Positions 20,966 to 36,384 of a DNA stretch of 64,000 nucleotides are shown in pieces. Under the pieces are notes generated by a model, which did no database searches, had not been told where the DNA came from, and saw nothing but the letters and a program-made list of their open reading frames with translations. The position numbers were made by a program, and so were the translations under genes. This DNA comes from an uncultured Rhizobiaceae group bacterium (GTDB lineage Bacteria; Pseudomonadota; Alphaproteobacteria; Rhizobiales; Rhizobiaceae): NCBI GenBank assembly GCA_938010435.1, contig CALLUS010000002.1, forward strand, positions 310,001 to 374,000, given 5' to 3'. Every line of letters starts with the position of its first letter. Position 1 is the stretch's first letter.

Positions 20966-22144
20966 ATGCGCGAAGCTGTCATCGTATCCACCGCCCGCAC
21001 GCCAATCGGCAAAGCCTATCGCGGCGCATTTAACAACACCCCTTCACAAACACTTGGTGGTCACGCCATTGAACACGCAGTTAAACGCGCAGGCATCGAC
21101 CCGGGTGAGGTTGACGATGTCATCATGGGAGCAGCCATGCAACAAGGCGTCCAAGGCGGAAACATTGGCCGCCAAGCGGCCCTCAAAGCGGGTTTGCCTG
21201 TTTCTGTTGCTGGTATGTCATTGGACCGCCAATGTGCATCAGGCATGATGGCAATCGCAACTGCAGCAAAGCAAGTGGTCCACGATCACATGCCAATTTG
21301 CATTGGTGGCGGTGTTGAATCAATCTCTATGGTGCAAACGCCAGACATGCGTGTGGGCGTCGATAAGTCGCTGATCGCCATGCATCCACATGTCTATATG
21401 TCCATGCTCGAGACGGCTGAAGTCGTGGCAGATCGCTACGGAATTTCCCGTGAGGCCATGGATGAGTACGGTTTACAATCACAACAACGTGTTGCTGCGG
21501 CACAAGAAGTCGGCAAGTTTGATGATGAAATTGTGCCGCTGTCTTCCACCATGGTGATGGTGAATAAAGAGACCAAAGAAAAGTCAGAACACGACGTCAC
21601 TTTGGAAAAAGATGAAGGCAACCGCGCCTCTACGACAATTGAGGGACTGCGAGGTTTGAATCCGGTTCTTGGGCCAGACAAAACAATCACGGCAGGCAAC
21701 GCATCCCAACTTTCAGACGGCGCGTCAGCTTCTGTCGTTATGGAAGCCAAGGAAGCCGAGCGCCGTGACCTATCGCCCCTTGGCGCTTATCGTGGAATGG
21801 CAGTAGCAGGCCTTGAACCGGACGAGATGGGCATAGGACCAATCTACGCGGTTCCAAAACTACTCGAGCGCTTCAATTTAAAAACGGACGATATTGGTTT
21901 GTGGGAATTGAACGAAGCCTTTGCCGTGCAGGTTCTTTATTGCCGCGATAAGCTGGGCATCGATAATGACATACTCAATGTAAATGGCGGTGCAATTTCT
22001 GTTGGCCACCCGTATGGGATGAGCGGCGCACGGATGGTTGGTCACGCATTGATTGAAGGCAAACGCCGTGGTGCTAAATACGTCGTCTGCACCATGTGTG
22101 TCGGCGGTGGTATGGGCGCTGCAGGCTTGTTCGAAGTATATTGA
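20966..22144 (+). CDS. Acetyl-CoA acyltransferase (thiolase)
   Basis: Thiolase of 392 residues that cleaves 3-ketoacyl-CoA with CoA in the last step of beta-oxidation. Active-site C90 is in DRQCASGM, the histidine in [14 protein letters not shown], and the second cysteine in [13 protein letters not shown] near the C-terminus. All catalytic blocks are intact. GGAGC lies 7 bases before the ATG. It is the first gene of a five-gene operon with the multifunctional protein ten bases on. Degradative, FadA/FadI-like, rather than a biosynthetic PhaA type, judging from the operon. Confidence 0.92.
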
Positions 22145-22154
22145 GGGTATCAAA

Positions 22155-24257
22155 ATGACAAAATCCGTCACAACTGAAATGCATGGTGAAATCGCCGTTA
22201 TCCGGATCGACAACCCACCCGTGAACGCGCTGTCTCACCATGTGCGTGAAGGTATGTTGCGTGAGCTGGGTGCTGCCCAAGAAAATAACGCGAAAGCAGC
22301 CATTTTGGTAGGTCGTGGCGGAACGTTCATCGCGGGTGCCGACATTAAAGAATTCGGTAAACCGCCGAAAGAACCAATGTTACCGGAAGTTATTCATCAG
22401 ATTGAAGCTATCACAATTCCTGTGATCGCCGTTATCGAAGGCAACACCTTAGGTGGCGGGCTCGAAGTCACACTTGGGTGTCACTACCGCGTTGCAGATG
22501 CGAAAGCCAAACTTGGCTTGCCAGAAGTCGCATTGGGTTTGTTGCCGGGTGCCAGTGGAACTCAAAGACTGCCACGATTATTGCAAAATCCGGTCGAAGC
22601 TTTGACCATGATTTCGTCAGGCCGCCCAATCAACGCGGCCAAAGCAGAAGCCATTGGATTGGTAGATAAGGTCGTAGATGGCAATGCACTGGAAGCAGCA
22701 CTGGAAATGGCTAATGGGTTGAACAATGACAACCTTGATGCGCGTCGTATTTCCAAAATCGAACTTACTATGACACCAGAGCTGGAAGCAGTCTTTGACG
22801 GGGCAATGGTTGAAATTGCCCAAAAAGCAAAAGGATCGATTGCGCCTGTGAAAGCCGCCGAGTGTGCACGCGCTGCATACAACATTCCATTCGATGAAGG
22901 CATGAAGCTTGAGCGTCAGTCATTTTTGGAATTGATGGTGGGCGATCAGTCGCAAGCACTGCAGTATATGTTCTTCGCGGAACGCCAGTCTCCTAAACCA
23001 CCGAAGGACGTCACTGGTGCGCCACGTGATGTAAAGAAGGTTGGCATTATTGGTGCTGGCACAATGGGAGGTGGCATCGCCATGACCTATGCCGAGGCTG
23101 GTTTTCCGGTGACCATTTTAGAAATGACCAATGAAGCGTTGGATCGCGGATTGGGAACGATTGAAAAAAACTGGGCGCGGGGCATCAAGTCCGGACGTAT
23201 CACCGAAGCTGGCGTAGCAGAACGGATGAGCCGACTTTCACGCACTACGAGTTATGATGATCTTGCCGATTGTGACCTCGTCATAGAAGCTGCGTTTGAA
23301 ACCATGGAGGTCAAACGCAACGTCTTCCGCAAACTGGATGCGACCGTCAAACAGGGTGCTATTTTGGCTTCCAACACATCTTATTTGAATGTTGATGAAA
23401 TCGCAGCTGAAACCAACCGTCCTGCGGATGTGTTGGGCATGCACTATTTCTCTCCAGCGAACATTATGCCTTTGCTGGAAATTGTTCGTGCTGAAAAGAC
23501 AGCTGATGATGTTTTGCTCACAGCCCTCGCTATGGCGAAGAAAACACGCAAGACGCCTACTATTTCCCGTGTGGGCCACGGTTTTATCGGCAACAGGATG
23601 CTAACACCTTATTTGCGTCAGGCTAACTTGCTTGTGCTTGAAGGGGCATCGCCTGCGCAAATTGACAAAGCACTAACCGATTTCGGTTGGGCCATGGGAC
23701 CATTCGCAGTAAGCGATTTAGCGGGTCTCGATATCGGATATAAATCGCGACAAGATCAAGAACTGAGCGAAGACGAGACACGCATTTATACCGCTGCTGA
23801 TCGATTGGTTGAAGCTGGTCATTTAGGGCAGAAATCCGGTTCTGGGTTCTATGCCTATGATCCGGAAATACGCGGTCGTTCTGAAAATTCAGCAGCGACA
23901 GAGATCATTGAACAGGTACGTTCAGAACTTGGCATCAACACTCGCGCCATTAGCGATGAAGAAATTGTGGAACGCACACAATTCGCCCTCGCAAATGAAG
24001 GTGCACATGTGTTGGCTGAAGGTGTCGCAACACGCGCAAGCGATGTGGATGTTGTCTACAACTACGGCTACGGCTACCCGCGCTGGCGCGGTGGCCCCAT
24101 GCATTACGTGGACACTGTTGGTCTGAAACACGTTGCAGCTAAAATTGCTGAATGGTCGGACAGCGCACAAAGCGTTCACTGGAACCCATCAGACCTATTG
24201 ATGACACTGGCCGACGAAGGCAAGAGTTTCCGTCAATGGGATGCTGAAAACAGTTAG
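22155..24257 (+). CDS. Fused enoyl-CoA hydratase / 3-hydroxyacyl-CoA dehydrogenase (FadB/FadJ-like)
   Basis: Two-domain beta-oxidation enzyme of 700 residues. The N-terminal hydratase/isomerase domain (1-190) has GRGGTFIAGADIKEF for CoA binding and the catalytic glutamates in NTLGGGLEVTLG and LGLPEVALG. The dehydrogenase half begins at VGIIGAGTMGGGIAMTYAEAG and carries the NAD site and the HYFSPANIMPLLEIV block, followed by two C-terminal helical domains. An in-frame ATG at 22053 lies within the thiolase gene; ATG 22155 has GAGGG eight bases upstream. It forms the trifunctional complex with the thiolase in related systems. Confidence 0.93.
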   Translation: MTKSVTTEMHGEIAVIRIDNPPVNALSHHVREGMLRELGAAQENNAKAAILVGRGGTFIAGADIKEFGKPPKEPMLPEVIHQIEAITIPVIAVIEGNTLGGGLEVTLGCHYRVADAKAKLGLPEVALGLLPGASGTQRLPRLLQNPVEALTMISSGRPINAAKAEAIGLVDKVVDGNALEAALEMANGLNNDNLDARRISKIELTMTPELEAVFDGAMVEIAQKAKGSIAPVKAAECARAAYNIPFDEGMKLERQSFLELMVGDQSQALQYMFFAERQSPKPPKDVTGAPRDVKKVGIIGAGTMGGGIAMTYAEAGFPVTILEMTNEALDRGLGTIEKNWARGIKSGRITEAGVAERMSRLSRTTSYDDLADCDLVIEAAFETMEVKRNVFRKLDATVKQGAILASNTSYLNVDEIAAETNRPADVLGMHYFSPANIMPLLEIVRAEKTADDVLLTALAMAKKTRKTPTISRVGHGFIGNRMLTPYLRQANLLVLEGASPAQIDKALTDFGWAMGPFAVSDLAGLDIGYKSRQDQELSEDETRIYTAADRLVEAGHLGQKSGSGFYAYDPEIRGRSENSAATEIIEQVRSELGINTRAISDEEIVERTQFALANEGAHVLAEGVATRASDVDVVYNYGYGYPRWRGGPMHYVDTVGLKHVAAKIAEWSDSAQSVHWNPSDLLMTLADEGKSFRQWDAENS

Positions 24258-24266
24258 GAATTTAAG

Positions 24267-25034
24267 ATGAGTCTTTTTGATCTCAAGGGCAAAACCGCAA
24301 TCATCACAGGTTCCTCTCGCGGCATCGGGAAGTCAATCGCCGAACAAATGGCAGCTCATGGCGCGAAGGTAGCCATATCTTCGCGCAAAATGCCCGCTTG
24401 CGAAGAAGTTGCTGCTGAATTGAACGCGAAATACGGCGATGGCACAGCTATTGCTGTTGCTTGCAACATTTCCTCAAAGGACGACCTGCAAAACTTGGTG
24501 GATGAAACCAAACAAGCGTTTGGCGATATCCATGTGTTGGTTTGCAACGCGGCATCGAACCCGTACTATGGGCCCATGGCAGATATTGCGGACGATCAGT
24601 TCACGAAAATTCTGCACAATAACATTGTCGCCAACAATCAATTGATCGGGATGGTGTCGCCGGAAATGATTGCTCGTAAAGATGGGGCAATTACAATTGT
24701 TTCATCCATTGGCGGGTTGAAAGGTTCACCGATTATCGGTGCTTACTGCATCTCGAAAGCTGCTGATTTTCAATTGGCGCGCAATCTAGCCGTCGAATAT
24801 GGGGCACATAATGTCCGCGTGAATTGCATCGCACCTGGCCTGATCAAAACAGACTTCGCGCGCGCGCTTTGGGAAAATCCCGATAATCTGAAAATGGCAT
24901 TGGCCACCACCCCCATGCGCCGTATTGGCGAACCCGATGAGATCGCCGGAGCAGCTGTATTCCTCTCTTCCCCAGCAGGTCAGTATATGACCGGCCAACA
25001 AATTGTCATCGATGGTGGCCAAACAATTACCTGA
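24267..25034 (+). CDS. Short-chain dehydrogenase/reductase
   Basis: Classical SDR of 255 residues with the cofactor loop TGSSRGIG (14-21), the NAAS stretch near 94, catalytic Ser146/147 and Y160-x3-K164. The C-terminal GQQIVIDGGQT is typical. Arg following the glycine loop and SSRK after strand 2 suggest NADP use, but this is not certain. It lies 9 bases behind the multifunctional gene and ten before an acyl-CoA dehydrogenase gene. In this operon it may reduce or oxidise a 3-keto/hydroxyacyl-CoA, or an unsaturated or branched side-chain alcohol. Confidence 0.88.
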   Translation: MSLFDLKGKTAIITGSSRGIGKSIAEQMAAHGAKVAISSRKMPACEEVAAELNAKYGDGTAIAVACNISSKDDLQNLVDETKQAFGDIHVLVCNAASNPYYGPMADIADDQFTKILHNNIVANNQLIGMVSPEMIARKDGAITIVSSIGGLKGSPIIGAYCISKAADFQLARNLAVEYGAHNVRVNCIAPGLIKTDFARALWENPDNLKMALATTPMRRIGEPDEIAGAAVFLSSPAGQYMTGQQIVIDGGQTIT

Positions 25035-25044
25035 GGAACAACTT

Positions 25045-26229
25045 ATGAGCGACCTTGAGACATTTAGAAACGAAACGCGTGAATGGTTAGATAAAAACTG
25101 TCCAGCCGACATGCGTGATGGTGCTGTAAGTGAAGCTACCCAGTGTTGGGGCGGACGCAATTGGACATTCACCAGCGAGGGGCAAAAGCTCTGGCTTGAA
25201 CGCATGGCAGCCAAAGGCTGGACTGTTCCCACATGGCCAAAAGAATATGGCGGAGCCGGCCTTTCAAAAGATGAAACGGAAATTCTTCAGGCGGAAATGA
25301 AGGCTATTGGTGCGCGAAAGCCGCACGATAATTTTGGCATCACAATGTTGGGCCCTGCTTTGCTGAAATTCGGAACGCATGAGCAGAAGCTGGAACATTT
25401 ACCACCCATAGCGCGCGGTGAATTGCGTTGGTGCCAAGGCTATTCAGAACCTGGAGCAGGTTCAGATCTTGCGTCCTTACGCACCAAAGCAGAAGACAAG
25501 GGCGATCATTATATCGTCAACGGTCAGAAAATCTGGACGTCTTATGCCGACAAAGCAGACTGGATATTCTGCCTTGTGCGAACGGACTTTGATGCAGCAA
25601 AACACAAAGGCATTTCGTTCGTTCTCTTTGATATGGCGACCGACGGCGTCACCACCAAACCAATCAAACTCATATCTGGTTCCTCGCCATTTTGTGAAAC
25701 ATTTTTCGATGATGTGCGTGTTGAAAAGTCCAATCTGGTGCATAAACCAAACAAAGGTTGGGATGTTGCAAAATATCTACTAACCCACGAGCGCGGCATG
25801 ATTGGCGAAGTGTTTGGCAACATGACGGGCGGACGCTCATTGGGTGAAATCGCTGCCAGTGAAATTGGTATCGATGATATGGGGCGCGTGGATGACCCAC
25901 TGCTTCGCGCAAAACTGGTACAGGCGGAGGTTGATTCCTTAGCTTTCTCCACCTTATTGCAGTCTGTCAGCGAACGCGCGGAAGCTGGGGAAAGTTTGGG
26001 CGCTGTCTCGTCCGTTTTAAAATATTACGGAACCGAAATGAACAAACGTCGCCATGAATTGCTTATGGAAATCGGCGGATCTGATGAATTGGAATGGTCT
26101 GAGCAGAACGACGATGGCCAACGTTCAAAAGATTGGTTGCGCACAAAGGGCAACTCCATTGAAGGCGGAACATCGGAAGTGCAATTACAGATTGTTGCAA
26201 AACACATTCTTCAAATGCCCAACGCATAA
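25045..26229 (+). CDS. Acyl-CoA dehydrogenase, first of a tandem pair
   Basis: FAD enzyme of about 394 residues that introduces the first double bond in acyl-CoA. Family blocks: WPKEYGGAGL, YSEPGAGSDLASL (FAD/substrate binding), and the C-terminal GGTSEVQLQIVAKHIL. The start at 25045 has GAGGAA at good spacing; the longer in-frame start at 25003 overlaps the SDR gene. The second dehydrogenase gene follows after 31 bases. Similar neighbouring pairs in steroid- and bile-acid-degrading bacteria form mixed complexes, which is a possibility here. Confidence 0.9.
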   Translation: MSDLETFRNETREWLDKNCPADMRDGAVSEATQCWGGRNWTFTSEGQKLWLERMAAKGWTVPTWPKEYGGAGLSKDETEILQAEMKAIGARKPHDNFGITMLGPALLKFGTHEQKLEHLPPIARGELRWCQGYSEPGAGSDLASLRTKAEDKGDHYIVNGQKIWTSYADKADWIFCLVRTDFDAAKHKGISFVLFDMATDGVTTKPIKLISGSSPFCETFFDDVRVEKSNLVHKPNKGWDVAKYLLTHERGMIGEVFGNMTGGRSLGEIAASEIGIDDMGRVDDPLLRAKLVQAEVDSLAFSTLLQSVSERAEAGESLGAVSSVLKYYGTEMNKRRHELLMEIGGSDELEWSEQNDDGQRSKDWLRTKGNSIEGGTSEVQLQIVAKHILQMPNA

Positions 26230-26260
26230 ATACCGCATAGAGAGAGTTTAGAGCAAACCC

Positions 26261-27400
26261 ATGTCGATGATGTTGAACGAAGACCAAGAAATGTTGCGCG
26301 AAGCGGCAGCTGGCTTTCTTAAAGAAAACGCACCAGTTTCCGCGTTCAGAGAAATGCGCGACAGCAATTCAACTGAAGGCTTTTCACGCGATCTCTGGTC
26401 AGAAATGGCGCAGATGGGTTGGGTTGGAATTCTGGTGCCTGAAGAATATGGGGGCAGCGCATTTGGCATGGTTGGCGCAGGTTTGATTGCCGAAGAAATG
26501 GGGAAACACCTCACGACATCTCCATTCCTCTCCACATCTGTATTGGCAACAACTGCTTTTGCAAAATTTGGAAGCGAAGCTCAAAAGCAACACCACCTCC
26601 CCAAGATTTCTTCCGGTGAATGCCTATACGCTTTGGCTGTTGATGAAGGTGCCAAGCATGCACCCGCAAAAATTAATCTGAAAGCAGAACGATCAGGCAA
26701 CGGGTTTAAATTGTCGGGTCAAAAAACATTCGTCGCAAACGGCCATGTGGCAGATCACGTCATAGTTGCGGCCCGTACAAGCGGTGAAGCTGGCGACGAG
26801 AACGGCATCACGCTCTTTTTAATGGATGCTAATTCCATGGGTTTGGATAAAACCGCCTCATCCATGGTCGACAATTCTAGTTCTGCGCGTCTGCGGTTGA
26901 GCGATGTGGAAGTGAATGCTGACGCGATCATTGGAGAGATTGACGGTGGTTTTGAACCATTGGAAACTATTTTAAATGCAGGGCGGGCTTGTCTTGCCGC
27001 TGAATTGACCGGTTGCGCCGATCAAGCTTTTAACACAACCGTTGCTTACATCAACGAACGCAAACAATTCGGTGTGCCCGTGGGTTCCTTCCAAGCCTTG
27101 CAACATCGCGCGGCACACCTGCACACCGAAATTGAAATGGCAAAGGCAGTAACCTTAGCTGCGCTTCAAAGCGTCGATGGTGAAGACGAACACGCTTGGC
27201 GCTTAACAGCACTTGCCAAAGCAAAAGTCGGTCAGGTTGCGTTGTTGGCGGCCCAAGAAGGCGTGCAAATGCATGGTGGAATGGGTATGACAGACGCGTT
27301 CGATATCGGCCTCTATTTGAAACGCGTGCGTGTTGCTGGAGAAATGTTTGGCGACGCCTCATGGCATGCCAACCGGATTGCGGAGGCACTTTCGTTTTAG
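26261..27400 (+). CDS. Acyl-CoA dehydrogenase, second of a tandem pair
   Basis: 379 residues, same fold as the preceding gene but clearly different in sequence. It has LVPEEYGGSAFG near residue 70, a weak version of the usual middle FAD-binding block (the region is AVDEGAKHAPAKINL instead of the xEPxAGSD type), and the C-terminal QMHGGMGMTDAFDIGLYLKR. The first member has the middle block intact but lacks the HGG motif. This complementary loss fits a heteromeric enzyme. It is the last gene of the operon. No terminator-like hairpin is seen before the next start. Confidence 0.88.
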   Translation: MSMMLNEDQEMLREAAAGFLKENAPVSAFREMRDSNSTEGFSRDLWSEMAQMGWVGILVPEEYGGSAFGMVGAGLIAEEMGKHLTTSPFLSTSVLATTAFAKFGSEAQKQHHLPKISSGECLYALAVDEGAKHAPAKINLKAERSGNGFKLSGQKTFVANGHVADHVIVAARTSGEAGDENGITLFLMDANSMGLDKTASSMVDNSSSARLRLSDVEVNADAIIGEIDGGFEPLETILNAGRACLAAELTGCADQAFNTTVAYINERKQFGVPVGSFQALQHRAAHLHTEIEMAKAVTLAALQSVDGEDEHAWRLTALAKAKVGQVALLAAQEGVQMHGGMGMTDAFDIGLYLKRVRVAGEMFGDASWHANRIAEALSF

Positions 27401-29347: not shown

Positions 29348-30148
29348 TTACTTCCCTTTCCAAACAGGGTCACGCTTTTCGGCGAAAGCATTGAAGCCTT
29401 CCATCATGTCTTTGCTGCCGTACAATTTGTCCACTGTTGGCAATTGTCGAGTGGTGATGCGGTTCAATGAGTCCTGGAATTTAGAATCTTCTGCATCGCG
29501 GACCACTTCTTTGATTGCCGCATAGACAAGTGGTGGTCCACTTTCCAATAACTCTGCCATTGCCCAGGCCTCTTCCATGAGTTTATCGGCAGGATAAATA
29601 TGATTTACCATGCCCCACTTATGCGCCTCTTCCACGTCAACCCAACGGCCCGTCAAAAGCATTTCCATGGCGATATGATAAGGAATTCGCTTAGGTAATT
29701 TGATGGACGCCGCGTCCGCCACTGTTCCAGAGCGGATTTCGGGCAAAGCAAATGTTGCATGGTCAGCTGCTAAAATAATGTCGCACGACAATGCTATCTC
29801 TAGCCCGCCACCACAACAAATTCCATTGACCGCGCAGATAACCGGCTTGTTCATACCGCGCAGTTCTTGTAAACCGCCAAATCCACCGACACCGTAGTCA
29901 CCATCAACAGCATCACCTTCAGCACCATCGCTGTTGGACGCTGCTTTCAAATCCCATCCCGGGCAAAAAAATTTCTCGCTAGTCGCCGTTAAAATCGCCA
30001 CCCGCATTTCAGGGTCATCACGGAATTCTGCAAATATGTCACCCATAATACGACTTGTTGCGAGATCGATTGCATTGGCTTTTGGACGGTCAATCGTGAT
30101 TTCAAGAATACCACCCACTTTGCGTGTTTTAATGGGGCTGTCAGTCAT
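29348..30148 (-). CDS. caiD: CaiD-like enoyl-CoA hydratase (carnitinyl-CoA dehydratase family)
   Basis: Crotonase-fold enzyme of 266 residues that most resembles carnitinyl-CoA dehydratase. Shared CaiD features: GILEITIDRPKANAID near the start, FCPGWDLKAA as CoA-binding loop, GGGLEIALSCD, the glutamate in FALPEIRSG, TGRWVDVEEAHKWGMVN, and the C-terminal FAEKRDPVWKGK, which is nearly identical to the end of E. coli CaiD. Expected reaction: crotonobetainyl-CoA plus water to and from L-carnitinyl-CoA. It overlaps the acyl-CoA synthetase gene by 8 nt and closes the operon with carnitine dehydrogenase upstream, which supports the assignment strongly. Confidence 0.85.
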   Translation of the reverse strand: MTDSPIKTRKVGGILEITIDRPKANAIDLATSRIMGDIFAEFRDDPEMRVAILTATSEKFFCPGWDLKAASNSDGAEGDAVDGDYGVGGFGGLQELRGMNKPVICAVNGICCGGGLEIALSCDIILAADHATFALPEIRSGTVADAASIKLPKRIPYHIAMEMLLTGRWVDVEEAHKWGMVNHIYPADKLMEEAWAMAELLESGPPLVYAAIKEVVRDAEDSKFQDSLNRITTRQLPTVDKLYGSKDMMEGFNAFAEKRDPVWKGK

Positions 30149-32198
30149 GCTGTTTCCTTTTCACAATCAATGCATCCACGGCGACACTGCCGAACTGGGT
30201 GGCAAATAATGGGTTCACGTCAAGTTCTTCTAAAGTATCCGCGTTCGCTGTGGCATAATTCGTGATGCATAAGACGTTTGCAATCAATGCGTCTATATCG
30301 GCGGCATCTGTATCACGATACCCTTCAAGTAATTTGCCAATTTTCAAATCTGCAAGTGCTGAACGAATGTCGGCCTCATCTACGGGCAATAGCAATGTCG
30401 CTGTATCAGCCAGCAATTCTGTTAAAATGCCCCCTGCCCCAATGGTCAACATCAACCCTACAACGGGCTCACGCGTCACGCCCACGATCAGTTCTGCAAG
30501 TGGTTTAGGGGCCATTTCTTCAATCAGAAACTTATCGGATAGGTCTGTCATGCTTTCGATGGCTTGCAGTATGTCTTCGTTGGAATTCAAGTTGAGTTTT
30601 ACTGCACCAAATTCGGACTTGTGAGCGATTCCCAGTGCCTTCACAGCTACAGGAAATTGCAATTCGCAAGTGCTTAAATCGAATTCCCTTCGATCAAAAA
30701 CGAGCAACCTTTTTGGCGTAACAAGCCCAGCCTTCGACAGTTCATTTTTTGAGTCGTATTCGTTGAGCGTTATCGATTCGAAGTCAGCAACACCTTTAAC
30801 TTTCAACAGTGGGGCAGCCTGCTTTTCAGCCCATGCTTCACCTATAAAGACCGCAGCTTCTGTAGCTTTCACCGCCGTATTCAAACCACACAAAGGAGCT
30901 ATACCTTTTGACATTAAGTCTTGGGCAACATCTTCAGGCATAGTCTCAGGCAGGCTAGAAACGACAGCCGCACAGACACCTGTCTGTTTGACTGCAGCAA
31001 CAAAACTGTCCGTTGCACTTTTCCAATCTTCAGGGTCGCATAGGTCGTCACGAGGAAAGTCCATCACCAAAGTTGCCAAATCAAAATTAGGCTCAAGTGC
31101 CACCTCAAACATACGGGTCATAGCTGGCCAATCGCCCCAAATGAATGTGTTGTAATCCAGCGGATTTGCAACGGTGACAATGTTTCCCAATTCTTGTTTC
31201 AGAGCATTCGATTCAGTATTCGAGAACGGTCGATAATTAAGTTTAGTGCTTTCGGTCGCATCGGCCATCAAAGACGCTTCACCGCCTGAACATGATAAGG
31301 ACAAAATGTCAGAACCGTTCATCGGGCCACCCACATGCAGCAGTTTCAGTGTTTCCAGAAACACTTCGATGAACGAGACACGAGCGACACCCAAACGCTC
31401 GAACAATGCGCTGTGCGCTACATCAGAACCAGCGAGAGACGCGGTATGTGTCATTGCCGCAGCTTGTGCTTGGGAAGACTTACCAACTTTCAATGCAACA
31501 ATGGGCTTTCCCAATTTCCTTGCGCGGAACGCCAAAGCCTCAAACGATTTCACATCGTCTAAGCCTTCGATATGAAGTCCAAGAGCCGTCACGCGCTCAT
31601 CTTCCAACAGGCTCAATCCCAGTTGCGACATACCCGTTTGCGCTTGATTGCCAACCGTCATTACACAGGCGATTGGCAGTGCCCGTTTCTGCATCGTCAT
31701 GTTTATGGCGACGTTGGAAGACTGGGTGAGGATCGCCACGCCACGATCAATCGGTTGAACGCCGTGTTGATCCGGCCATAGAGCTACACGTTCGAGCGCA
31801 TTTACATAGCCATAACAATTCGGGCCGATGACCGGCATATCATCAGCCGCCTCAATCAATTGCTTTTGTAGATCGCCAGAACCTTCGTTTTCTAGATCAG
31901 CTTCAGCAAAGCCAGCTGCGTAGCAAACTGCACCACCAGCGCCCATTTTTGCTAATTGCGCTACAACATCGATCGTCAAAATTCGATTGACGGCCACATA
32001 AGCTGCATCGGGTGCATGGGGCAAATCATTGACCGATTTGAAACACACGCGACCACGCATGTTCTCTCGCTTAGGGTGGACACACCAGATTTCACCATCA
32101 AAGCCAAGTTTATCACATTGTTCTACAACGCGGTCGCATTCCTTACCACCAATGACAGCAATGATACGCGGGTTTAGCAGACGGGAAATATCTGTCAT
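30141..32198 (-). CDS. ADP-forming acyl-CoA synthetase, probable betaine/carnitine CoA ligase
   Basis: Single-chain NDP-forming CoA ligase of 685 residues. An N-terminal CoA-binding domain (1-125) is followed by the succinyl-CoA-synthetase-like domain with H251 in THTASLAGSD, the phospho-histidine candidate, and a C-terminal ATP-grasp domain (about 470-685). The order is that of ADP-forming acetyl-CoA synthetases. In the present operon the expected substrates are gamma-butyrobetaine, crotonobetaine or carnitine, replacing the AMP-forming CaiC. Such ligases are reversible and can recover ATP from a CoA thioester. It starts 3 nt after the acyl-CoA dehydrogenase stop and overlaps caiD. The fold is certain; the substrate is inferred from context. 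Confidence 0.82.
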   Translation of the reverse strand: MTDISRLLNPRIIAVIGGKECDRVVEQCDKLGFDGEIWCVHPKRENMRGRVCFKSVNDLPHAPDAAYVAVNRILTIDVVAQLAKMGAGGAVCYAAGFAEADLENEGSGDLQKQLIEAADDMPVIGPNCYGYVNALERVALWPDQHGVQPIDRGVAILTQSSNVAINMTMQKRALPIACVMTVGNQAQTGMSQLGLSLLEDERVTALGLHIEGLDDVKSFEALAFRARKLGKPIVALKVGKSSQAQAAAMTHTASLAGSDVAHSALFERLGVARVSFIEVFLETLKLLHVGGPMNGSDILSLSCSGGEASLMADATESTKLNYRPFSNTESNALKQELGNIVTVANPLDYNTFIWGDWPAMTRMFEVALEPNFDLATLVMDFPRDDLCDPEDWKSATDSFVAAVKQTGVCAAVVSSLPETMPEDVAQDLMSKGIAPLCGLNTAVKATEAAVFIGEAWAEKQAAPLLKVKGVADFESITLNEYDSKNELSKAGLVTPKRLLVFDRREFDLSTCELQFPVAVKALGIAHKSEFGAVKLNLNSNEDILQAIESMTDLSDKFLIEEMAPKPLAELIVGVTREPVVGLMLTIGAGGILTELLADTATLLLPVDEADIRSALADLKIGKLLEGYRDTDAADIDALIANVLCITNYATANADTLEELDVNPLFATQFGSVAVDALIVKRKQHD

Positions 32199-32201
32199 CG
32201 A

Positions 32202-33365
32202 CTATCCGCCAAGCGGACGAAGAAGCGCGCGGGAAATAATGTGCCGCTGAATTTCAGATGTGCCTTCCCAGATGCGTTCAATACGCGCATCGCGCCAAAT
32301 GCGTTCCAGTGGCAATTCCTCCATAAGACCCATGCCACCATGAATTTGAATGGCTTCATCGGCAACCATAGCCAGCACTTCTGACGCTTTGAGTTTTGCC
32401 ATAGCCATGTCGCTGTCAGTGCATGCGCCATCGTCAAACTTACTGCCCGCTTCCCACGTGAGCAGTTCAGCAGCTTTGAGTTCCATCGCCATATCAGCAA
32501 GCTTGAAACTCACGCCTTGAAACTTTCCGATTTGCTGGCCGAATTGTTTGCGCTCTGTGGAGAATTGCACGGCGTGTTGGAAAGCGCGGTCGGCACGACC
32601 AAGGCAAGTGGCTGCAACTTGAAGACGCGTTGCGCCCAGCCAATCATTGGCCACTTCGAACCCTTTGCCCAGTTCACCCAAAATATTTTCAGCTGGAACG
32701 CGGCAATCATCGAACTCCAAAATAGCATTGGTATAACCTCGGTGAGATACATTGTTGTATCCGTCGCGGACTGAGAAACCTTTGGTTCCTTTGTCCACGA
32801 AGAACGCAGTGATTTCTGCCTTGGGTCCGCGTGAAGTTTCCACCTCTCCCGTTTTCATGAAACAGATTGCAAAACCTGCTATATCCGCATGGCTGATGAA
32901 ATGCTTTGTGCCGTTCAACACCCAGTCAGTTCCATCCCGTTTTGCGCTGGCTTTCATGCCGCGCAGATCAGACCCCGCGCCGGGTTCTGTCATGGCGAGA
33001 CAATCCCACGTCTCACCTTTTAGACAAGGCTCTAAGTAACGTTCACGTTGATCTGCATTGCCTGCACACAGGATATTTGATGGGCGCGCAACGCATGTCC
33101 AATGCAAGGCATAATTGGCACGCCCCAGTTCTTTTTCGTAAAGCAGCCAAGTAAGTGTATCGAGGCCTACACCGCCAAACTCTTCAGGAATATTGGCGGC
33201 ATAAAGCCCTGCCTCAATCGCCTTCTTCTGAAGCTCTTTGACGAGATCCATCTCAAGCACACCACTGCGCTCGATCTCTTCCTCGTGAGGATAGAGCTCG
33301 TTTTCCACAAACGCGCGAGTGGTTTCAACTATGAGATTCTGTTCTTCGGAGAGAGAGAAATTCAT
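32202..33365 (-). CDS. Acyl-CoA dehydrogenase, probable gamma-butyrobetainyl-CoA dehydrogenase
   Basis: FAD-dependent dehydrogenase of 387 residues with complete family blocks: NIPEEFGGVGLD near 60, the MTEPGAGSDLRGM flavin/substrate loop, LGATRLQVAA, QIHGGMGLM and ERIWEGTSEIQRHI at the C-terminus. In CaiA-type and related clusters the enzyme interconverts gamma-butyrobetainyl-CoA and crotonobetainyl-CoA. The operon with CaiD and a carnitine dehydrogenase makes the oxidative direction likely. It overlaps the YunG-like gene by 4 nt. The general reaction is safe; the substrate is inferred from neighbours. Confidence 0.85.
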   Translation of the reverse strand: MNFSLSEEQNLIVETTRAFVENELYPHEEEIERSGVLEMDLVKELQKKAIEAGLYAANIPEEFGGVGLDTLTWLLYEKELGRANYALHWTCVARPSNILCAGNADQRERYLEPCLKGETWDCLAMTEPGAGSDLRGMKASAKRDGTDWVLNGTKHFISHADIAGFAICFMKTGEVETSRGPKAEITAFFVDKGTKGFSVRDGYNNVSHRGYTNAILEFDDCRVPAENILGELGKGFEVANDWLGATRLQVAATCLGRADRAFQHAVQFSTERKQFGQQIGKFQGVSFKLADMAMELKAAELLTWEAGSKFDDGACTDSDMAMAKLKASEVLAMVADEAIQIHGGMGLMEELPLERIWRDARIERIWEGTSEIQRHIISRALLRPLGG

Positions 33366-33715
33366 GTGAGGTCACCCAAATTCTCTAACAATGCTTCACG
33401 CAGCGTAGTATATTCCTGTTCAGTGAAGCCGCTGTTTGCTTCTCGTTTGGATGAAGCTACGTTAGCATAGTGAATCGGAACTTCAAATTGATCATCAGTC
33501 AGATCGTACACCGAACCATCTATCTGATTGTAATAGTGATCAGTTTGTTCATTCCACGGTGTCTTAAGAATTTCTCCGCCAAAAATGTCAGCTATAACTG
33601 CCGCGGTAACGTTGCATTGACCTTCAAATGGCCGTTCTTCAGTCCATTGGCGCGCTGTATCCAACGACCAGCTTTTCGCCAATGCGTTTCTCACTTTGGT
33701 TTCATTAAACATCAT
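33362..33715 (-). CDS. Small YunG-like protein of unknown function inside the carnitine operon
   Basis: 117 residues, no signal peptide or membrane segment. The pattern GQCNVTAAVIADIFGGEIL (C34), DHYYNQIDG (H60) and YDLTDDQF (D71) resembles proteins named YunG-like in many bacteria. The order Cys-His-Asp on such a small fold recalls papain-like hydrolases, but that is only a suggestion. The gene overlaps the carnitine dehydrogenase gene by 11 nt and the acyl-CoA dehydrogenase gene by 4 nt, so it is fully embedded in the operon. Two neighbouring ATGs (33715, 33712) could start it. I do not know its function; a CoA-thioester hydrolase role is one idea to test. Confidence 0.65.
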   Translation of the reverse strand: MMFNETKVRNALAKSWSLDTARQWTEERPFEGQCNVTAAVIADIFGGEILKTPWNEQTDHYYNQIDGSVYDLTDDQFEVPIHYANVASSKREANSGFTEQEYTTLREALLENLGDLT

Positions 33716-34712
33716 TGGCCACTTTCGCTTTCAATCGTTCTTCGTACTCCATCAGAAGCTTTCCTGAACCCCACCCTTTTCCGCCATGGCCTTTGGCTAG
33801 AACGTGCATGATACCCACGAGATTTTCGTCGCGAATTTGTTCCAATTCACGAATTGAATGCATGCCTGATTGGGCGTCAGATTGATCCGCGATTTTGTTG
33901 ATCAAAGCTTCGTCCAACTCGGGAACGTTCATCAACTTCGTCCAAGGCAGGCTCATGGTCGGGCCGAACTGTTCGATGAAATGACGCATGCCCGCTTCAC
34001 CGCCTGCGATGCGGTATGTTTCGAACAAGCCCATCTGCGCCCAACGCATGCCGAACGAATAGCGCATGATATTGTCGAGTTCTTCGGTGGTGCAAACATC
34101 ATCTTTGATGAGCCAAAGCGCTTCGCGCCAAACGGCTTCCAACAAGCGGTCACCCACAAATGCATCGATTTCTTTGCGGATGGTGATGGGCTTCATGCCG
34201 ACCTGTTCGTAAGCCGCATGCGCACGCGAGATTATATCTTCGCTCGTTTGATTCCCACCCACGATTTCCACCAACGGCAGGAGGTAAACAGGGTTGTAAG
34301 GATGCGCGACGAACAAGCGTTCCGGGTTCATCATTTTAACCTGAATATCGGTGGGCAAAAGGCCGGATGTGGAAGACCCGATGAGTGCTATTTCAGATGC
34401 CGCAGCATCAATTTGCATGTGAACTTTTTGTTTCAGCTCCAAACGCTCCGGCACGGATTCTTGGATGAGGTCTGCATGTTCCACAGCCTCTTCGATGCTG
34501 TCTACAAAGGTGAGAGTTCCGCGCTCTGGCTTTGGTGCATCGGTAAGCATGGCAAATGCACGTTCTGCATTAGACATCACTTCGCCAACGATGCGTTGCG
34601 CTTCGGGGTGCGGATCAAAGATTTTGCAGTCCAGCCCGTTCAATACAAACCGCGCCGCCCAAGCTCCACCGATAACACCGCCGCCAATTGCGGCCGTTGA
34701 TTTAATGGTCAT
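33705..34712 (-). CDS. lcdH: L-carnitine 3-dehydrogenase
   Basis: NAD-dependent dehydrogenase of the 3-hydroxyacyl-CoA dehydrogenase superfamily, 335 residues. The cofactor motif GGGVIGGAWAARF is at 10-22; VPERLELKQKVH, STSGLLPTDIQ and AHPYNPVYLLPLVEIVGG are hallmarks of carnitine dehydrogenases, where the superfamily histidine lies in AHP. It oxidises L-carnitine to 3-dehydrocarnitine. Some homologues carry a C-terminal thioesterase domain for betainyl-CoA; this one ends without it. It overlaps the BKACE gene by 4 nt, and that enzyme takes the product further. Pairing with BKACE makes the call strong. Confidence 0.9.
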   Translation of the reverse strand: MTIKSTAAIGGGVIGGAWAARFVLNGLDCKIFDPHPEAQRIVGEVMSNAERAFAMLTDAPKPERGTLTFVDSIEEAVEHADLIQESVPERLELKQKVHMQIDAAASEIALIGSSTSGLLPTDIQVKMMNPERLFVAHPYNPVYLLPLVEIVGGNQTSEDIISRAHAAYEQVGMKPITIRKEIDAFVGDRLLEAVWREALWLIKDDVCTTEELDNIMRYSFGMRWAQMGLFETYRIAGGEAGMRHFIEQFGPTMSLPWTKLMNVPELDEALINKIADQSDAQSGMHSIRELEQIRDENLVGIMHVLAKGHGGKGWGSGKLLMEYEERLKAKVANDV

Positions 34713-35623
34713 TTGCTTGCTGCCCGTTTCACCAAACCAAGACGCTCGCGCACTTGTTCAGGCCCGATCACTTTCGCACCAAGGTTTTCGATAATCGACA
34801 CCGACTTCTCCACAAGCTGTGTGTTGGTGGCTAATACACCGCGTTCCAGCATGAGGTTGTCTTCTAAACCCACCCGCACATTACCACCAGCAAGAACAGA
34901 TGCCGCCACATAGGCCATCTGATCGCGGCCCAAACTAAATGCGCTCCAGTTCCATGTGTCCGGCACATTGTTGACCATAGCCATGAATGTGTTGAGATCG
35001 TTCGGTGCGCCCCATGGCACTCCCATGCAAAGTTGCACCAATGCGTTTTCTTCCAGAATACCTTCTTTCACCAACTCCTTGGCAAACCAAAGATGACCTG
35101 TGTCGAAGGCTTCAATCTCAGGCTTCACACCAAGGTCCGTCATCATTTGTCCCATGGCACGCAACATACCCGGCGTGTTGGTCATCACGTAGTCAGCTTC
35201 AGCAAAGTTCATTGTGCCGCAATCGAGTGTGCAGATTTCTGGCAGACACTCAGCCACATGAGCAACCCGTTCAGCAGCCCCAGCCATATCTGTTCCTGCG
35301 ACTTTTAATGGTAATGGCGCTTCTGTAGTGCCAAACACCATGTCGCCGCCCATACCTGCGGTTAGGTTCAAAACCACATCAACGTCTGCATCTCGAATGC
35401 GATCGGTAGCTTCTCGATAAAGATCAAGCCTGCGGCTTGGCACACCTGTTTCGGGATCACGCACATGGCAATGAACAACAGCAGCGCCAGCCTTTGCGGC
35501 ATCGATTGCGCTATTGGCAATTTCCTCCGGCGAACGGGGCACATGCCGGCTTTTGTCTTGGGTTCCACCAGAGCCTGTGACGGCGCATGTGATGAAAACT
35601 TCACGGTTCATGGAAAGTGGCAT
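34709..35623 (-). CDS. Beta-keto acid cleavage enzyme (BKACE), probably acting on 3-dehydrocarnitine
   Basis: DUF849 family Zn enzyme of about 304 residues. The metal-binding HCH of VVHCHVRDPETG is at H51 and H53, with ITCAVTGSGG at the N-terminus and NLTAGMGGDMVFG for substrate binding. BKACEs join a beta-keto acid with acetyl-CoA to give acetoacetate and a new CoA ester. With carnitine dehydrogenase next to it, the expected products are acetoacetate and betainyl-CoA. GGGAGG lies five bases ahead of ATG 35623; an upstream in-frame ATG at 35707 would add a hydrophobic leader and is rejected. It is the first gene of the six-gene operon, behind a 134-bp AT-rich upstream region. Confidence 0.88.
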   Translation of the reverse strand: MPLSMNREVFITCAVTGSGGTQDKSRHVPRSPEEIANSAIDAAKAGAAVVHCHVRDPETGVPSRRLDLYREATDRIRDADVDVVLNLTAGMGGDMVFGTTEAPLPLKVAGTDMAGAAERVAHVAECLPEICTLDCGTMNFAEADYVMTNTPGMLRAMGQMMTDLGVKPEIEAFDTGHLWFAKELVKEGILEENALVQLCMGVPWGAPNDLNTFMAMVNNVPDTWNWSAFSLGRDQMAYVAASVLAGGNVRVGLEDNLMLERGVLATNTQLVEKSVSIIENLGAKVIGPEQVRERLGLVKRAASK

Positions 35624-35757: not shown

Positions 35758-36384
35758 TCAAAGCGTAATTTTTTTGTTCGTGATTGCTGCTTCCAAAATA
35801 TCAACAGCCTCACCCAACCGTTGGTCGATCACTTCAAGATATTTCGTCCAGTCGCTGTATTTTGAAACCGGGTCTGCACCGTCTGATATACCCCGCAAAC
35901 CGATTATTGGAACGCCATAAATCAGACACGCGCGCATAATAGCCCATGTCTCCATATCTACCATATCTGCTGAAGCGGATTTATAAGAATCGCCCGAAAC
36001 CACATTGGCTCCTGTGCTCAACGTTGCAGTCTCCATGTCGGGTATCATGTGTTTCAGTTCAACCTCTGCGGGCAAATCCAAGAATGGCGTTGCGCCCTTT
36101 TCAAAGCCGAATGGAGACGCATCCATATCACGGTAAGACACGTGGCTTACTTGATACACTTTGACTTGTTCCAGAACAGCAGACCCCGCACTGCCAAGAG
36201 AAACAACGAGATCCGGTTTGTTATTGGCAGTTAAATATTGGGCCATGTGTAAAGCCGCTTCAACTGGTCCGACCTGACAGATTAGTGGTTTGAAGCGGGC
36301 CTTCAGCGCAGAATGATATTCTGCCAATGTCGCCATAACATACAGAACCCGGCGGCCTGCGACTATTTTCACTTCGGGTGTCAT
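35758..36384 (-). CDS. 5'-methylthioadenosine / S-adenosylhomocysteine nucleosidase-like protein
   Basis: Purine-phosphorylase-superfamily protein of about 208 residues. It has VSLGSAGSA (phosphate-site-like loop), MVDMETWAIMRACLIYGVP with the ribose-binding Met-Glu pair, and GISDGADPVS with the catalytic Asp, all as in MtnN. It should cleave adenine from methylthioadenosine or S-adenosylhomocysteine. ATG 36384 has AGGGA eight bases upstream; the in-frame ATG at 36423 is less likely. It is slightly shorter than E. coli MtnN (232) and diverged at the N-terminus, so another nucleoside cannot be excluded. Divergent from the DUF2177 gene. Confidence 0.82.
   Translation of the reverse strand: MTPEVKIVAGRRVLYVMATLAEYHSALKARFKPLICQVGPVEAALHMAQYLTANNKPDLVVSLGSAGSAVLEQVKVYQVSHVSYRDMDASPFGFEKGATPFLDLPAEVELKHMIPDMETATLSTGANVVSGDSYKSASADMVDMETWAIMRACLIYGVPIIGLRGISDGADPVSKYSDWTKYLEVIDQRLGEAVDILEAAITNKKITL

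Follow-up and report, generated by a model that had tools for sequence, protein, structure and literature searches.

A probable gamma-butyrobetaine/carnitine operon with an ADP-forming CoA ligase and an unfused carnitine dehydrogenase in an uncultured Rhizobiaceae bacterium

The data presented here concern a six-gene operon of an uncultured Rhizobiaceae bacterium (GenBank assembly GCA_938010435.1), found in a 64,000-nucleotide stretch of contig CALLUS010000002.1 (positions 310,001 to 374,000) that was analyzed as a whole and is called the window below. The operon is probably one for aerobic use of gamma-butyrobetaine and carnitine, of a kind common in Rhizobiaceae, with a free thioesterase opening the betainyl-CoA that is formed. 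This pathway reading is sound and well supported, yet the pathway is largely known and widespread; the departure from the known kind is a carnitine 3-dehydrogenase (CDH) that lacks a thioesterase domain and is probably served in trans. All six open reading frames lie on the minus strand within positions 29348-35623, joined by overlaps of 4, 11, 4 and 8 nt and a single gap of 3 nt. Their coordinates, strand, overlaps and gap exactly match the original prediction of this operon, which is confirmed in gene content, order, orientation and spacing. The ATG of the BKACE gene is preceded at 4 nt by GGGAGG, and a scan for promoter-like and terminator-like sites gave 3 and 9 of them, respectively, where 7.6 and 7.9 were expected, and is uninformative. 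In order of transcription the genes are:

34709-35623, minus strand: BKACE (PF05853, 326 bits), 75% identical to the BKACE of Sinorhizobium meliloti and of Rhizobium etli
33705-34712, minus strand: CDH-like protein of 335 aa without C-terminal thioesterase domain (PF02737 and PF00725; NF005716)
33362-33715, minus strand: YunG family protein of 117 aa (PF24585, 115.5 bits)
32202-33365, minus strand: acyl-CoA dehydrogenase (ACAD) of 387 aa, a putative gamma-butyrobetainyl-CoA dehydrogenase (PF02771/PF02770/PF00441)
30141-32198, minus strand: ADP-forming acyl-CoA synthetase of 685 aa, a putative gamma-butyrobetaine/crotonobetaine:CoA ligase (PF13380, PF13607 and PF13549)
29348-30148, minus strand: CaiD-like crotonobetainyl-CoA hydratase of 266 aa (PF00378; NF002936 is the best NCBIfam model)

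The carnitine operon of S. meliloti and R. etli shares its five enzyme genes and their order with the window operon. Identity to the S. meliloti proteins is 75% for BKACE, 70% for CDH (dehydrogenase part), 63% for ACAD and 76% for CaiD, the counterparts being annotated as 3-keto-5-aminohexanoate cleavage protein, carnitine 3-dehydrogenase, acyl-CoA dehydrogenase and caiD, respectively, and the ligase shares 51% identity with its counterpart in the R. etli operon. Unlike those operons, the window operon has a CDH without the fused thioesterase, an inserted YunG gene and no adjoining GlxA-type regulator or ABC transporter. These identities and the kept order bear out the route that had been proposed for the operon, from gamma-butyrobetaine or crotonobetaine through carnitine to betainyl-CoA with an ADP-forming ligase. 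However, the pathway is not new in outline, because two parts of it are already in print. Strain HK4, a relative of Agrobacterium/Rhizobium, converts gamma-butyrobetaine to L-carnitine by steps like those of fatty acid degradation (PMC2131755), a likeness drawn from the description of the route, and BcoAB of S. meliloti with ATP, CoA and gamma-butyrobetaine yields gamma-butyrobetainyl-CoA (PMC8364193). A BKACE-type enzyme of S. meliloti is also described as turning 3-dehydrocarnitine into betainyl-CoA (PMC12482172, citing Bazire 2019).

All substrates and all steps of the pathway in the window's organism are predicted. The ADP-forming ligase would convert gamma-butyrobetaine to gamma-butyrobetainyl-CoA (or form crotonobetainyl-CoA), ACAD would oxidize gamma-butyrobetainyl-CoA, and the CaiD-like protein would hydrate crotonobetainyl-CoA to carnitinyl-CoA. 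L-carnitine would then be freed from carnitinyl-CoA by a thioesterase or by the ligase in reverse, CDH would convert it to 3-dehydrocarnitine, and BKACE would turn 3-dehydrocarnitine and acetyl-CoA into betainyl-CoA and acetoacetate. Since the CDH-fused domain of many relatives is absent, betainyl-CoA would most likely be opened by a free 4HBT_2-type thioesterase encoded elsewhere in the same genome, at G000:C14:159197-159682 (G000 being the window's genome).

The distribution of the operon was examined in loci picked by similarity to the ligase: 26 matching places in 61 genomes, the window's genome included, and the best 80 of at least 586 named loci together with 2 plasmid loci. Three named loci duplicate others, which leaves 105 distinct loci, 77 of them named. 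Genes for BKACE, CDH, ACAD, ligase and CaiD occur in this order on a single strand at 79 of the 105, which is beyond coincidence, a proportion that describes loci chosen by their ligase, only the best-matching named ones among them, and not the frequency among all genomes. Complete operons are present in Rhizobium, Shinella, Sinorhizobium and Mesorhizobium, among others. Where the original prediction looked to the six-gene order in other genomes, it is the five core genes that recur, and YunG stands in only 3 of the 9 congeneric complete operons. The thioesterase is fused to CDH in 50 of the 79 and CDH is unfused in 29, so that the fusion is a common trait of this operon type and not a defining one. 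S. meliloti Ak57 is counted among the 50, and its ligase frame is split in two (L134:12001-14027; pieces of 480 and 228 aa, no CDS annotated there), which is either a genuine loss or a sequencing error. Among plasmid records, 158 of 72,556 match the ligase at E 1e-100, all with less than 60% identity. A divergent GlxA-type regulator gene lies upstream of BKACE in most loci and not in the window; the closest relative of this gene in the window's genome lies about 130 kb off on the contig, with 33% identity. Five roseobacter-type loci (L081, L085, L096, L102 and L125) carry an ACAD, ligase and CaiD unit with its own GlxA-type gene and show no BKACE or CDH in the stretch shown, and at L111, L114 and L128 the ACAD-ligase-CaiD set and the BKACE-CDH set are near one another. 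For this reason the operon is read as two modules, one leading from gamma-butyrobetaine to carnitine and the other from carnitine to betainyl-CoA.

The ligase contains the CoA-binding, ligase and ATP-grasp domains expected of its class (PF13380, PF13607 and PF13549, all above cut-offs). The closest solved chain is DddX (7cm9; E 1.9e-59, residues 12-678), and the structural model of the ligase (mean predicted local distance difference test score, pLDDT, 88.4) superposes on it with a TM score of 0.86, a root-mean-square deviation (rmsd) of 4.5 and 25% identity; a further fold match is 8wzu. DddX is an ATP-dependent lyase that acts on the cation dimethylsulfoniopropionate (DMSP), to which it attaches CoA, with Trp391 and Phe435 as cation-pi residues, Glu432 as lyase base and a phosphorylated His292. 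Residue pairs between both proteins were taken by eye from the printed alignment and are possibly a few columns off in gapped stretches. On this alignment H251 of the ligase pairs with His292 and does not vary in any of the 105 rows. W141 pairs with Tyr181 and is Trp in all 105 rows, a column where the solved 4-hydroxybutyrate and 3-hydroxypropionate ligases carry Asn and Gln, and Phe435 is matched by W392, a position with Trp in 97 of 105. The ADP-forming synthetase fold, the phosphohistidine and aromatic residues at two of the named positions are therefore shared with DddX, whereas Trp391 is matched by N350 and Glu432 by P389, a position that is variable among the 105 rows and where Glu is absent from the six commonest residues. 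Taken together, these residues are consistent with a CoA ligase that acts on a cationic acid and lacks lyase activity. BcoAB may be the ligase of this operon type. In the 40 of 228 records listed from a nucleotide search with the S. meliloti ligase stretch, the gene products are named no more closely than 'acetate--CoA ligase family protein' and 'acyl-CoA synthetase'. No paper among the matches listed names an ADP-forming ligase for gamma-butyrobetaine in its available part, which is not a claim that none is in print.

The CaiD-like protein is 49% identical to E. coli CaiD, and Glu117 and Glu137 are both kept in 103 of 103 rows. ACAD scores 180.5 bits against the crotonobetainyl-CoA dehydrogenase CaiA model NF002885 (cut-off 540), has acryloyl-CoA reductase as its best NCBIfam model (303.1 bits, cut-off 640) and is 30% identical to E. 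coli CaiA. Position 367 of ACAD, the usual catalytic position, is Glu in the window operon and at 42 of 101 loci in all (48-100% identical to the window ACAD) and Asp at 59 (51-63%), so two ACAD types occupy the same place in the operon; E. coli CaiA, annotated as a reductase, has Gly there.

The E. coli cai operon has CaiB, a CoA transferase, and the AMP-forming CaiC, neither of which is in the window operon. The original prediction that CaiC is missing also extends to the genome in the sense that a search with E. coli CaiC found no close CaiC, only 16 places with 24-37% identity (best E 1e-53 at 30%). In Pseudomonas aeruginosa, cdhC, cdhA and cdhB encode BKACE, CDH and thioesterase, respectively. 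The caiX-cdhCAB-hocS operon of that organism serves the conversion of carnitine to glycine betaine and has a divergent AraC-family regulator (PMC5806209); as named in the available part of that report, and compared by description, it includes no gene for a ligase, an acyl-CoA dehydrogenase or CaiD. The carnitine island of Arctic SAR11 has CDH and BKACE genes together with genes for gamma-butyrobetaine dioxygenase and an acyl-CoA thioesterase, and unlike the window it is not credited with a set of ligase, acyl-CoA dehydrogenase and CaiD in the part of the source available (PMC12421898).

The missing thioesterase domain is the feature that sets the window operon apart. In relatives such as the one with locus L036 the CDH runs on into a 4HBT_2 domain (PF13279). 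The CDH frame of the window gave no thioesterase match, and its match to NF005716 covers positions 4-333 of 495. A search of the window's genome with the fused domain gave a single further match (E 4.5e-24), the free thioesterase named above, which stands in its own frame. Thus the earlier claim that there is no thioesterase holds for the operon and fails for the genome. A homologue of the free protein was found in 12 of 12 congeners in one search and in 14 of 15 in another (absent in G014), and its neighbors have counterparts beside it in four other congeners.

Co-occurrence was counted in two sets, both of which consist mostly of close relatives. In the 61-genome set, where the threshold was E 1e-60 for CDH and at least 40% identity for a free thioesterase, which had to lie in a frame separate from that of CDH, the free thioesterase was present in 14 of 14 genomes with an unfused CDH. 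These are ten congeners (CDH more than 80% identical), G012 (CDH 44%), G021, G035 and G059; G021 and G035 count as unfused by having no thioesterase match adjoining CDH, which a divergent domain could escape, and in G059 a thioesterase gene adjoins CDH. Genomes with a fused CDH had the free protein in 5 of 16 cases (G033, G040, G042, G048 and G049), and G042 carries an additional unfused CDH. In a second set of 38 loci chosen from the 77 named ones (18 unfused, 20 fused), a free thioesterase with 57-64% identity was found in 18 of 18 genomes with an unfused CDH whereas none of the 20 with a fused CDH had one. Of those 18, one has its match in an open frame of 528 aa, three have matches that extend across a stop and one carries, in addition, another match in a frame as long as that of a fused protein. 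A quick tree built from 56 fused and 31 unfused CDHs (87 in all) implies five changes of state, at least four of them on supported branches, although several long branches leave other parts of the tree unsure. Because the window's genus clusters with a fused Rhizobium-type clade (support 95), apart from an unfused Mesorhizobium-type clade, the domain losses in these two groups look separate. On these comparisons the free thioesterase is the likeliest betainyl-CoA hydrolase in the window's genome.

Further genes accompany some of these operons. An HD-domain gene weakly similar to the oxygenases MIOX, PhnZ and TmpB is near BKACE and CDH at 17 of the 105 loci (L045:5694-6326, L031:13306-13968 and Mesorhizobium-type loci such as L087 and L090), with CDH unfused in 16 of the 17. 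TmpB-type enzymes convert a phosphonate to glycine betaine, which makes it conceivable that this protein cleaves a C-C bond. In the congener G003 a GDSL-type hydrolase gene (PF13472, L045:5044-5697) lies between BKACE and the HD-domain gene, and an acyl hydrolase in such an operon could be relevant to release from CoA esters.

The original prediction had the ligase as the sole CoA enzyme, its reverse reaction freeing carnitine and betaine with formation of ATP and without any thioesterase. The ADP-forming fold, the invariant phosphohistidine and an operon without a thioesterase would agree with this, and enzymes of this class may in principle regain ATP by running in reverse. However, the main objection to such a substitution is that 50 of the 79 complete operons contain both the ligase and a fused thioesterase, and a free homologue is encoded in the window's genome and in all 32 genomes with an unfused CDH that were checked. 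Replacement of the thioesterase by the ligase is therefore not favored and, as a full account, is unlikely. A related reading, in which the ligase frees L-carnitine in an ATP-neutral CoA cycle, regaining the ATP spent on gamma-butyrobetaine, and also acts on betainyl-CoA, earning ATP, where CDH has lost its thioesterase, is only slightly less doubtful. It could also be supposed that the operon serves another onium acid, a different betaine or a sulfonium analogue, given that the closest solved relative of the ligase acts on DMSP and that sequence cannot reveal specificity. This is quite improbable with a CDH 70% identical to an annotated carnitine 3-dehydrogenase, a hydratase 49% identical to E. 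coli CaiD and a variable position in place of the DddX lyase base.

By far the least probable account is that YunG is a cysteine-dependent thioesterase that took over from the lost domain. YunG does occupy the place of the fused domain behind CDH, and its C34, H60 and D71 are invariant in 10 rows. However, its presence is patchy, which is why it is not favored as a substitute. The slot between CDH and ACAD in the nine congeneric complete operons holds YunG in G000, G006 and G007, a GNAT-type protein in G002 and G004, an unassigned 269-aa protein in G001 and nothing in G003, G011 and G013, so that YunG is missing from six operons with an equally unfused CDH, including that of the nearest relative, G013. 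It occurs in 7 of the 61 relatives, in four of them elsewhere in the genome, and is rare in the class (6 of 289 genomes, the window's included). The YunG model is confident (pLDDT 94.1), but in the lists of families searched Foldseek gave no match at E 0.001 or better (best E 0.096), and the best VIA-align match has a Z of 5.9, an rmsd of 3.9 and 107 aligned residues. The gene has the lowest GC content at third codon positions of the six (0.398). YunG is taken as an accessory insert and is possibly an uncharacterized cysteine enzyme, judging from its invariant residues and model.

Several observations weigh against the preferred reading of a gamma-butyrobetaine/carnitine operon served by a free thioesterase. 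N350 of the ligase, at the column of the DddX cation-pi residue Trp391, is not aromatic; among the 105 rows this column is His in 87, Asn in 15 and Thr in 3, whereas the adjoining Y349 is Tyr in 103. CDH scores 591.5 bits against NF005716 (carnitine 3-dehydrogenase, its best NCBIfam model), just under the cut-off of 592, because the thioesterase part is absent, and the CaiD-like protein scores 287.5 bits against NF002936, well under the cut-off of 500, though this is its best library model. No transporter or regulator gene adjoins the operon in the window. The free thioesterase shares just 35% identity with the fused domain, and its neighbors are unrelated genes (judged by eye to encode an FAD-linked oxidase and a chloride-channel-like protein). 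It is also present in 11 of the 31 genomes of the 61-genome set that have no CDH, which shows that the free protein has an additional role. Finally, a test of independent pairs for unfused CDH against free thioesterase came out at 3 pairs in favor, none against and 1 tied (p 0.25), without significance because there are too few independent switches.

The surroundings of the operon are partly conserved among congeners. Upstream of BKACE on the same strand is a gene for 5'-methylthioadenosine/S-adenosylhomocysteine nucleosidase (35758-36384; TIGR01705, 267 bits), which accompanies 9 of 9 congeneric complete operons (in one case cut short at a contig end) and did not appear elsewhere in the 105-locus set. 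Converging on the operon from the plus strand is a fatty-acid-oxidation-like set (20966-27400; by eye, a thiolase, a FadB-like protein, a short-chain dehydrogenase/reductase and two acyl-CoA dehydrogenases) that has the same place in several congeners. Betaines could be demethylated and taken up in this organism, since its genome also encodes four proteins of the MttB family and two binding proteins of OpuAC type.

According to the data presented in this study, the conserved carnitine/gamma-butyrobetaine operon of Rhizobium, Sinorhizobium, Shinella, Mesorhizobium and marine relatives includes an ADP-forming ligase. They also lead to the prediction that, wherever CDH has no thioesterase domain, a free thioesterase would open betainyl-CoA. 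If the ligase does regain ATP, the energy yield of these bacteria on such solutes would need to be recounted.

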